Source of the DNA: Notolepis coatsorum
Lineage: Eukaryota > Chordata > Actinopteri > Aulopiformes > Paralepididae
Reading direction: 5' to 3'
Length of the DNA stretch: 64,000 nt
Assembly: GCA_963971535.1 (NCBI GenBank)
Contig: OZ020587.1
Coordinates: 156,407,877-156,471,876, forward strand
Part shown: positions 5,828 to 8,746 of the stretch, in pieces
Layout: each line of letters begins with the position of its first letter
How positions within the stretch are numbered: the stretch's first letter is position 1
The notes under the pieces: generated by a model
What the model was told of the DNA's origin: nothing
Database searches by the model: none
The model's input: the letters and a program-made list of their open reading frames with translations, nothing else
Made by a program: the position numbers and the translations under genes

Positions 5828-8746
5828 TTATTTACCACTTTGCCCTCCATTATTTGCTATGACTAGGGGCAACACTTTTGCCAAGCCAGCGATGAGATTG
5901 TTACATACATCCACTGTTAGTTTATTGCGCCAGTAAAACCTTATGGCCGCTACTAAAGCATCTTTCGTGAAAGGTTTCGCCTCTCTGCGAATATAATCTT
6001 TCATTAGGTGCCACACAATTTCAATGGGGTTCAAATCGGGCGACTCAGCCGGGGTTTTGACCCAATTGATTCCCTCTGCTGCAATGCAAACTCTGGCAGC
6101 GCTGTGTTTGGGGTCGTTATCCTGGAAGAAACGATGGCTCTTCCCAAAAGTAGCTCGTATGTACGGACCAGCGGCTGCTTTGATGATCGATTCTTCAAAA
6201 AAGACACGGTCCATTATTCCATCGAAAATAACAAGCGGGCCTGGACCGAGCTTGGAAATCGCGCCCCAAACATGCACTTTTAACGGATGCTTAGGGGCCG
6301 GTTTACCTTGACGAAAGCCTTTTTTCGTAAAGCTTTGTCTTGCAAAGTGTTCGAGTGCGACAGTGCTCTCATCTGTAAATATGACGTCATGCCATGTTTC
6401 ACATGTATCGATCCACTGGTGCGCCTGTAGATGAATGAATGAAAACTTTATTTAACAGATTGCAGAATGGGTACAATACATGTAGTACGGCTCATATGAA
6501 TGAATGAATGAATGAAAACTTTATTAACAGATTGCAGAATGGGTACAGTACAGTAGGGGGGGGTTGGGTAGGAGTGGGGGGGGGGGTAGATAGATAGAAC
6601 ATAGATAGTGGGGGGGGGGGGGGTAGATAGATAGAACATGGGGGGGGTAGATAGATAGAACATACTGTAGATAGATAGATAGATAGATAGATAGATAGAT
6701 AGATAGATAGATAGATAGATAGATAGATAGATAGATAGATAGATAGATAGATAGATAGATAGATAGATAGATAGATAGATAGATAGATAGATAGATAGAT
6801 AGATAGATAGATAGATAGATAGATAGATAGATAGATAGATAGATAGATAGATAGATAGATAGATAGATAGATAGATAGATAGATAGATAGATAGATAGAT
6901 AGATAGATAGATAGATAGATAGATAGATAGATAGATAGATAGATAGATAGATAGATAGATAGATAGATAGATAGATAGATAGATAGATAGATAGATAGAT
7001 AGATAGATAGATAGATAGATAGATAGATAGATAGATAGATAGATAGATAGATAGATAGATAGATAGATAGATAGATAGATAGATAGATAGATAGATAGAT
7101 AGATAGATAGATAGATAGATAGATAGATAGATAGATAGATAGATAGATAGATAGATAGATAGATAGATAGATAGATAGATAGATAGATAGATAGATAGAT
7201 AGATAGATAGATAGATAGATAGATAGATAGATAGATAGATAGATAGATAGATAGATAGATAGATAGATAGATAGATAGATAGATAGATAGATAGATAGAT
7301 AGATAGATAGATAGATAGATAGATAGATAGATAGATAGATAGATAGATAGATAGATAGATAGATAGATAGATAGATAGATAGATAGATAGATAGATAGAT
7401 AGATAGATAGATAGATAGATAGATAGATAGATAGATAGATAGATAGATAGATAGATAGATAGATAGATAGATAGATAGATAGATAGATAGATAGATAGAT
7501 AGATAGATAGATAGATAGATAGATAGATAGATAGATAGATAGATAGATAGATAGATAGATAGATAGATAGATAGATAGATAGATAGATAGATAGATAGAT
7601 AGATAGATAGATAGATAGATAGATAGATAGATAGATAGATAGATAGATAGATAGATAGATAGATAGATAGATAGATAGATAGATAGATAGATAGATAGAT
7701 AGATAGATAGATAGATAGATAGATAGATAGATAGATAGATAGATAGATAGATAGATAGATAGATAGATAGATAGATAGATAGATAGATAGATAGATAGAT
7801 AGATAGATAGATAGATAGATAGATAGATAGATAGATAGATAGATAGATAGATAGATAGATAGATAGATAGATAGATAGATAGATAGATAGATAGATAGAT
7901 AGATAGATAGATAGATAGATAGATAGATAGATAGATAGATAGATAGATAGATAGATAGATAGATAGATAGATAGATAGATAGATAGATAGATAGATAGAT
8001 AGATAGATAGATAGATAGATAGATAGATAGATAGATAGATAGATAGATAGATAGATAGAAGAAAAACAAACCTGTGCGAGTCTTAATTCTTTATTTTTGT
8101 CACGGATCATTGGCCAGAACTTAGTTTGACCATATTTCCAGCCGAGGCCCCTACGTGCTGTACGGATAGCAGTCAGGCTGAGATGAATACCCAAATCGTC
8201 TTCGATGCACTTCTGGATTTGCCGTGCAACCATGCAATTGCGGGCCTTCGTCAGGTTGTCAATGGCGACCAGGACATTGCTATGGAAATGGAAGAGAAAG
8301 AAAGTGGAAATTAATTAACTGAGAGGGGGGTTAAAATATATATATTGTAAGAGTATATTTATGAGACAGTATATTTATTTTGTACAAGAATGTGAAACTT
8401 CCTATCACGTTTGAATAATGCTGTAACGTTAAGTAAAAATGCATTTCAACTTAATTCCAGCTCAATATGGGTTTTGCAGGTTAATACTCTCTCGTAACGC
8501 ACAACACAACACAGACCTGCTAATCTGTTAAATAAAGTTTTCATTCATTCATTCATTCTGTACTCACTCAGACAGTTTACGTGGAGCACGGCGTCGTTGT
8601 ATTTTCAGTTTGTAATGCCATTCAATAGTGCCCGCAGTAACGCAGATTCCTAACGATGCAAAATGTTGCCTAATGCGTCTCGTAGATATGCCCTGGGATC
8701 GTAACTGACGCACATCTCGAGAATGTTGTTTGTTGATTTTAGTCAT
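5828..8746 (-). CDS. Tc1/mariner-like transposase, three exons, apparently intact
   Basis: A DDE-type transposase that would cut and paste its element at TA targets. Exon 1 is 8746-8568, exon 2 is 8279-8072 and exon 3 is 6424-5828. Introns start GTGAGTA and GTTTGT and end CCATAG and CTACAG. The spliced frame has no stop and gives 327 residues, near the usual 330-350 for this superfamily. Exon 1 holds a helix-turn-helix-like DNA-binding region. Exon 3 holds the catalytic core: FTDES (Asp147), QDNDPKHSA (Asp231) and ESPDLNPIE (Glu264). I count 32 residues between the last two, against 34 in classical Tc1 (DD34E). I start at ATG 8746 rather than the GTG two codons upstream. A TATA-like box lies about 40 nt upstream. 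Intron 1 carries a SINE/LINE tail and intron 2 the (GATA)n array. Terminal inverted repeats were not found, so it may be an isolated or domesticated copy. Confidence 0.8.
6425..8071 (-). other. Intron 2 of the transposase gene
   Basis: 1,647 bp, phase 0, with donor CAG|GTTTGT at 8072/8071 and acceptor CTACAG|G at 6425/6424. It contains two copies of the 'ACAGATTGCAGAATGGGTAC' tail (about 6433-6475 and 6500-6560), G-tracts (6556-6660) and the (GATA)n array. The interruption looks catastrophic unspliced, but both flanking exons keep frame exactly. Confidence 0.75.
6669..8059. repeat. (GATA)n microsatellite, about 1.39 kb, uninterrupted
   Basis: Roughly 347 perfect tandem copies with no visible interruption. 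All frames are open, so a tyrosine/leucine/serine/isoleucine repeat frame of several hundred codons appears on the minus strand; it is not a gene. GATA/GACA ('Bkm') satellites are known to accumulate on some vertebrate sex chromosomes. Nothing here shows sex linkage. Confidence 0.98.
8280..8567 (-). other. Intron 1 of the transposase gene
   Basis: 288 bp. The donor is GA|GTGAGTA (8568/8567). The acceptor is a pyrimidine-rich stretch ending CCATAG (8280), with exon 2 starting at 8279. The codon is split GA|C (Asp). It contains the reverse of a 'TTAAATAAAGTTTTCATTC' tail (8521-8559). Confidence 0.75.

Follow-up and report, generated by a model that had tools for sequence, protein, structure and literature searches.

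How can a transposase gene be intact if its catalytic reading frame appears to be broken by 1.4 kb of GATA repeats, and where would the introns that bridge such a break have come from? The question is raised by a gene on the minus strand of a 64,000-nt stretch of DNA (the window, whose coordinates are used below unless another locus is named), in which a sequence-only reading had recognised a Tc1/mariner-like transposase of three exons, joined across GT-AG introns into one frame of 327 codons. Every coordinate of this structure was reproduced to the base, and the gene is very probably an intact three-exon transposase of the DD32E type, belonging to a young Tc1/mariner-type family and represented in the window by a copy without both element ends. 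The evidence comes from searches of the same 3.42-Gb genome, which is probably that of a jawed vertebrate, as judged by 14 matches of C1-set immunoglobulin domains with none in any of 14 control genomes. Loci fetched from it bear L-numbers; the families compared are W (the window type), B (L047-L049), A (L044-L046), D (L063-L064) and S (C32, L034 and L033).

The transposase gene and its copies

The three exons (Table 1) encode 327 residues with D147, D231 and E264 as the Asp/Asp/Glu motifs, and a recount returned the same 32 residues between D231 and E264, instead of the 34 of DD34E/Tc1, which makes the protein DD32E; the spacing of 32, counted by eye, is also that of L064 in family D. A Pfam profile search matched DDE_3 at 2.2e-15, and the nearest solved structure was the Sleeping Beauty catalytic domain 5cr4 (1.8e-17, the alignment spanning residues 116-317), with Mos1 reaching only 0.39. 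The predicted protein is Tc1-like and has a DDE/D catalytic domain of the Tc1/IS630 type.

The genome search that the sequence-only reading had proposed for further copies and their ends was productive on both counts. Exon 3 is present in at least 40 near-identical copies (97-100% identity), 14 of them full-score matches with the window included, among the best 40 of 241 candidates. All three exons were found in 15 of the 20 copies fetched, the other five being without exon 1, so that the exact splice boundaries bridging the GATA repeats recur in 15 of 20 further copies. With the window added, 14 of the 16 three-exon copies hold an open transposase frame, the frameshifted ones being L020 and L026 (2 bp missing where exon 3 begins). 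Intron 1 measures 288 bp in 13 of these 16 copies, and intron 2 ranges from 333 to 1,647 bp. The ratio of nonsynonymous to synonymous substitution rates (dN/dS), computed by NG86 over exons 2-3, was 0.096 between W and B (266 codons) and 0.081-0.193 in four other family comparisons. The transposase is under strong purifying selection, and the family is high-copy, young and recently mobile.

The ends and cargo of the element

The left terminus, TA followed by CAGATACAGCTGTGAAAAG (in short, TA and CAGATACAGCTG), was found in six copies with differing flanks, and a seventh, in L023, has 3 mismatches; the right terminus, AACGCTTCATCTG followed by TA and thus ending in CATCTG before the dinucleotide, was found in three copies. 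The copy at L017 is complete and measures 16,036 bp between its TA dinucleotides. The copy at L012, of 9.4 kb and without exons 1-2, is inserted in a high-copy repeat, and its flanks joined with a single TA (a 33-mer) have 5,637 genome matches at no more than 3 mismatches, against 0 for the control. This empty site indicates that a very large element duplicates TA exactly, the target-site duplication of Tc1/mariner, and, since L012 lacks exons 1-2 and yet has a precise TA insertion, that defective copies also move. Left ends adjoin exon-3 copies in 13 cases, counted by eye among the best 40 of 931 candidates. The window copy corresponds to about positions 7235-12078 of the complete L017 copy; being without both ends, it offered no terminal inverted repeats to the sequence-only reading, which had rightly reported none beside the gene. 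In the stretches fetched for families A and B, element ends were looked for and none was found.

The element departs from the typical, although not obligatory, shape of Tc1/mariner elements, which are short and have a single, usually intronless open reading frame (ORF), by its 16,036 bp, three exons and second gene. It also carries evident passengers, including DDE_Tnp_4/HTH_Tnp_4 fragments at L021:1815-2517 (Pfam 9.2e-32) and L030:809-1115 (1.9e-7) and a YqaJ domain fragment inside the L017 element (2.6e-7). A plus-strand fragment near 5335-5387 resembles what we take to be the end of a Ty1/copia pol (no Pfam match), and at L014:2782-3643, in transposase-sense coordinates, a presumably copia-like integrase open frame runs into the left end of that copy and is its insertion site. 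The copies that look truncated at the 5' side, the copia-like fragment and the repeat tails inside the element had suggested nested copia elements or long interspersed nuclear elements (LINEs), a reading ruled out by the exact TA-flanked ends.

The second gene

Family W carries a second ORF, ORF2, of 350 residues, which among the 20 fetched copies is whole and open in 6, partial in 4 (three of them running off the fetched stretch) and absent from the stretch in 10. Its association with the transposase was counted between the best 150 of 973 transposase candidates and the best 150 of 261 ORF2 candidates: 71 of the 150 listed transposase loci have an ORF2 no farther than 25 kb away, upstream and divergent in every one of the 71, with random placement giving a mean of 0.35 and a maximum of 3 over 200 draws. 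We infer that ORF2 may act as an accessory transposition or DNA-binding factor. A BEN domain was considered and rejected (E 0.025; 15.2 bits against a cut-off of 23.2; one of four members only). The AlphaFold model of ORF2 has a predicted local distance difference test (pLDDT) score of 58 and found no match in Foldseek and VIA-align fold searches; the best hit in the PDB, at 0.0067, fell in a coiled-coil-like region, the profile search reached 0.91 at best, and no confident domain emerged from either.

The alternative, in which ORF2 is passenger cargo captured once and the element has no functional second gene, is rather unlikely but keeps an appreciable probability. The other passengers of the element are of that kind, in 79 of the 150 listed transposase loci the surrounding 25 kb are free of any listed ORF2, and the dN/dS of ORF2 (0.29-0.50 in comparisons between families, 0.67 for D against its close relative A) as well as its want of a confident domain would suit cargo. 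Single capture of a passenger is, however, at odds with the homologues of 388-398 residues that are open in further families (L065-L067), and with an orientation that is divergent wherever ORF2 stands near the transposase.

Intron history across relatives

Intron 1 occupies a position common to families W, B, A, D (L064) and C32. Both introns stand at the W positions in family B, where the intron-1 AG of L049 is mutated, and only intron 1 is present in family A, in L064 and in C32, in which it is 5,405 bp long. The other member of family D, L063, is without intron 2, and exon 1 was sought in its fetched stretch and not found. An open frame of exactly 282 residues, equal to the joined exon 2-3 frame of L064, occurs in 27 of 38 rows at 79-80% identity among the matches listed. 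In a tree of 16 sequences, W and B were separated from A, D and S with a support of 100, as were A with D and the members of S, and L034 was joined to L033 with 81. These distributions indicate that intron 1 is the older of the two, that it was present before families W, B, A, D and S separated and that it was lost in L034 and L033.

The last two are informative about the loss. L033 is a decayed relative with neither intron, and it holds the one genome match of the spliced exon 1-exon 2 junction pattern. L034 has an intact ORF, lacks both introns, with the absence of intron 1 exact, and is 93% identical in DNA to C32; the homology between them runs from 32 nt past the first base of the TATA box to about 25 nt past AATAAA. 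L034 looks like a retrocopy of a capped, spliced mRNA, and it is the best evidence at hand for the predicted removal of intron 1. The intronless ORF at L034:1-658, together with L042 (G000:C4:51277980-51278957, minus strand), has C32 and L033 (91%) as its closest relatives. The L034 frame extends upstream to a sequence like a 3' splice site and might belong to a host-fused, domesticated transposase.

Intron 2 as a retroposon

The composition of intron 2 is simplest in family B, where its 360, 311 and 345 bp consist of a 154-nt head, a (CTAT)n tail and ACAG. The head matches a repeat: the best 40 of 777 candidates comprise 11 transposase introns and 29 sites elsewhere, at 94-98% identity. All five of the repeats fetched from elsewhere (L050-L054) run on into AATCAATAAACTATTCT, followed by several TATC units in four of them and by one in L050, and three of the five also match head positions 3-41 or 6-30, from which it follows that head positions 3-154 and the tail are repeat. 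The unit has the pattern GTTTGTTTTTC/GTATTTTT...AATCAATAAACTATTCTATC(n)..AG, and that of L050 likewise begins with GTTTGTTTTTCTT. At L050:130-400 the unit is reversed beside the 5' splice-site-like end (ACAGCAG followed by GTAAGATAG) of an open frame. In the window the middle of the head is deleted, the CTAT tail is expanded and two further repeat tails have been added. By this composition intron 2 is made up of a retroposon along its whole length; the GATA array is the expanded tail of that retroposon and does not disrupt the gene.

The same unit in a piggyBac-type transposase

The repeat was also found within another transposase gene. Its L052 and L054 copies run into CTACCCAG and, directly at the end of that sequence, into a coding piece that matches DDE_Tnp_1_7 (9e-8 and 2e-4, the latter below the Pfam cut-off), a model (PF13843) which we take to be that of the piggyBac-type transposase domain. 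Of the 29 repeat rows elsewhere, 14 lie 133-546 nt upstream of such an exon on the same strand, 3 lie within 20 kb of it and 12 are near no listed exon row. All six loci fetched by the exon (L068-L073, one of them at G000:C32:82177117) have GACCCAG directly before GTATTTTT, then the unit, its TATC tail and CTACCCAG up to the exon, the tail ending in CCCAG save in L072 (CCCGG); in L070 the coding piece upstream of the unit is mostly replaced. The piece before the unit covers PF13843 positions 105-145 in L073 and L072 and 106-145 in L068 (E 1.4e-4 to 2.6e-3, slightly below the Pfam cut-off), and the piece after it covers positions 146-199 in L073 and L068. Since the profile matches abut at 145/146, the unit interrupts the domain precisely, and its limits are those of the intron. 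Open frames of 351-665 residues in 9 of the 150 listed exon rows suggest relatives without this intron.

One repeat is thus predicted, from the in-frame joins, to form GT-to-AG introns in two unrelated transposase genes, and it behaves like an introner, both in that intron 2 and the piggyBac-type intron would each have formed by insertion of an element and in that the introns lie in independent genes. The origin of the second intron from the same unit raises the odds that a vertebrate introner is at hand.

An older intron 2, ancestral to all the families and lost in A, D and S, into which the retroposon was merely inserted, is quite improbable. The tree, being unrooted, would allow for it, and loss through reverse transcription is favoured for CACTA transposases in passages of PMC4158355. 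Such a loss would nevertheless have to leave intron 1 of A, D and C32 untouched; intron 2 of family B is fully accounted for by the retroposon with its tail, apart from a few bases at the splice sites; and in an unrelated gene this unit makes up an intron over its full length.

Comparison with known systems

Tc1 termini begin with CAG. Sleeping Beauty and Tc1 (DD34E) resemble the present family in an alignable catalytic domain, the TA target and the CAG-starting termini, and differ in their 34-residue spacing, against 32 residues, two introns, an element of up to 16 kb, a second gene and poor terminal inverted repeats here. Classical Tc1 elements had been called intronless in the sequence-only reading, but Tc1-like transposases with introns are already known. 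Minos of Drosophila hydei, as described in part of PMC2874221, has a Tc1-type transposase with a 60-bp intron and is alike in its intron-bearing gene, differing by the single intron, the 1.8-kb element and the 254-bp terminal inverted repeats. TLEWI of molluscs, compared here by description from passages of PMC10379824 and PMC8533490 citing Puzakov et al. 2020, is Tc1-like with spliceosomal introns as well, numbering 3-5, in contrast to the 2, 1 or 0 of the jawed-vertebrate lineage. Further ORFs are known from the ciliate Tec/TBE elements of Tc1/mariner type (excerpts of PMC7325037), which differ in being DD34E, in their ciliate hosts and in their other accessory genes. Teratorn and other giant eukaryotic transposons are alike as very large DNA transposons with cargo, Teratorn being of the piggyBac type; the accessible text of the giant-transposon review PMC6431247 contains 0 occurrences of 'mariner' and of 'Tc1'. 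DD32D/E and DD32G are known from pogo-derived host genes, and the term DD32E did not occur in the open-access texts searched for it.

In introners, according to sections of Gozashti et al. 2022 (PMC9860276), a copy of an element becomes an intron with a target duplication in more than one gene, as in the present case; they are mostly of DNA-transposon types, only two groups occur among animals and land plants, and those sections give no pattern of introner gain in vertebrates. Here, unlike those, the unit is retroposon-like, its host is a vertebrate, and it forms introns so far only in transposon genes. Introns in Tc1-like elements, and introners, are already known kinds, of which the present case is a variant. 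Searches of open-access literature yielded no description of a two-gene DD32E element in a vertebrate or of this introner-like unit; no search was aimed at the piggyBac-type intron, and Repbase and Dfam lay outside the scope.

Proposed history and remaining alternatives

In the reading that we propose, transcription would start from the TATA box, the spliceosome would remove both introns, and the transposase would move the element by cut-and-paste. Intron 2 would have been gained by an ancestor that W and B share, through the insertion of a retroposon unit, GTTTGTTTTTC...AATAAA and then a CTAT tail, at a site of the form ...ACAG; the unit would have supplied the GT and the duplicated target behind the tail the AG. 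A piggyBac-type transposase contains this unit as well, from GT to AG. Microsatellite growth and repeat insertions would later have yielded the 1.6-kb intron 2 of the window. We put forward tentatively, as a possibility that falls a little short of even chances, that a vertebrate retroposon acts in full as an introner: its copies would start with a 5' splice site, acquire a 3' splice site from the target duplicated behind a (TATC)n tail and so be spliced out of the genes in which they land. Two unrelated DNA transposons would have received introns in their transposases in this way and spread them through the genome, one of them being the two-gene DD32E lineage with an accessory ORF2.

Several points weigh against this history. 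The terminal inverted repeats are short and imperfect, with CAGAT perfect and scattered matches only beyond it, and a search for the left-end sequence at the right end by pattern and blastn gave no match, so that what ties the transposase to these ends is their co-occurrence and the TA target; the copy in the window is itself without ORF2 as well as without both ends. As a sign of target duplication, the ACAGG that bounds intron 2 on either side counts for little, CAG before and G after the splice junction being expected of any canonical intron, and the ACCCAG (6 bp) at both ends of the piggyBac-type intron is a better one and yet a single case. As to splicing, the sole match of the intron-1 junction falls in the diverged S lineage, no poly(A) tail was visible in L034 where one was looked for, and the spliced exon 2-exon 3 junction of W and B, sought in the genome, had 0 matches at no more than 3 mismatches. 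B forms no clade of its own, W branching inside it (support 73-90) in the unrooted tree, and the dN/dS of 0.065 between W and D (NG86) comes with a saturated dS (2.06) and no value from YN00.

It is very improbable that the introns are unspliced and the copies a family of pseudogenes that insertions have split and that are mobilised in trans, in which the GT-AG restoration of the frame is coincidental. The 5 of 20 fetched copies that spread without exon 1 would agree with it. Coincidence does not, however, account for the dN/dS of 0.10 obtained for exons 2-3 when W is compared with B, intron 2 being present in both, for the exact absence of intron 1 in L034 and L033, for intron positions and phases kept across families, or for an equivalent in-frame intron in another transposase. 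The sequence-only reading had left the choice between an intron-bearing lineage and a host-retained gene: the former stands, with a high-copy TA-target family and relatives with 2, 1 and 0 introns, and the latter, a domesticated transposase whose introns were acquired after the loss of mobility, is hardly tenable for the window copy in spite of its intact gene without element ends and the purifying selection, since a domesticated host gene is expected as a single copy with no mobile relatives, against the dispersed near-identical copies, the complete TA-flanked element and the empty site found here, and since both introns are present in 16 of 16 three-exon copies and so predate the window insertion.

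Features of the window

Table 1. Features of the transposase gene and of the element fragment in the window
Feature	Position	Strand	Remarks
Exon 1	8568..8746	-	ATG at 8746; N-terminal part of the transposase
Intron 1	8280..8567	-	288 bp, GTGAGT...ATAG, phase 2
Exon 2	8072..8279	-	
Intron 2	6425..8071	-	1,647 bp, GTTTGT...ACAG, phase 0
(GATA/CTAT)n array within intron 2	6648..8059		353 copies, 99% match
Another repeat tail, added later in two copies (AATCTGTTAATAAAGTTTTCATTCATTCAT and a variant of it)	6425..6555	-	now precede the 3' splice site of intron 2
Exon 3	5828..6424	-	stop TAA 5830-5828; entire DDE_3 match (residues 142-285), D147, D231, E264
TATA-box-like TATATAA	8783..8789	-	43 nt upstream of the ATG; L047 and L040 have one too
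AATAAA polyadenylation signal	5683..5688	-	3' of the stop
Element-internal tandem repeat	10108..11212		about 815 bp per unit, with a higher unit number in other copies; similarity to fetched copies stops at 11212
Element 3' region	4778..5827		similarity to fetched copies stops at 4778

Elsewhere in the window there are two very large minisatellites with a 42-bp unit, at 38576-41861 (about 77 copies) and 42628-53759 (about 261 copies), in both of which long minus-strand open frames track the repeat. A related 29-30-bp minisatellite (TTAACC...CACTACAG) forms five arrays in both orientations, at 3494-3791, 12060-12449, 17206-17287, 36030-36173 and 36877-36962, two of which flank the element fragment, one on each side. 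Three further open frames presumably derive from other mobile elements, resembling what we take to be a BEL/Pao gag (61098-62675, minus strand), an L1-type endonuclease (59810-60489, plus strand) and pieces of a LINE reverse transcriptase (28242-31232, minus strand).

Significance

Microsatellite-filled introns can make working transposases look broken to annotators, as in the present locus. One transposase gene exists in a single genome in zero-, one- and two-intron states, and a second gene would be an unexpected addition to the Tc1/mariner elements of animals. Because the newest intron can be traced to a source element, which also forms the intron of another, unrelated gene, the birth of introns in a vertebrate would become directly testable.

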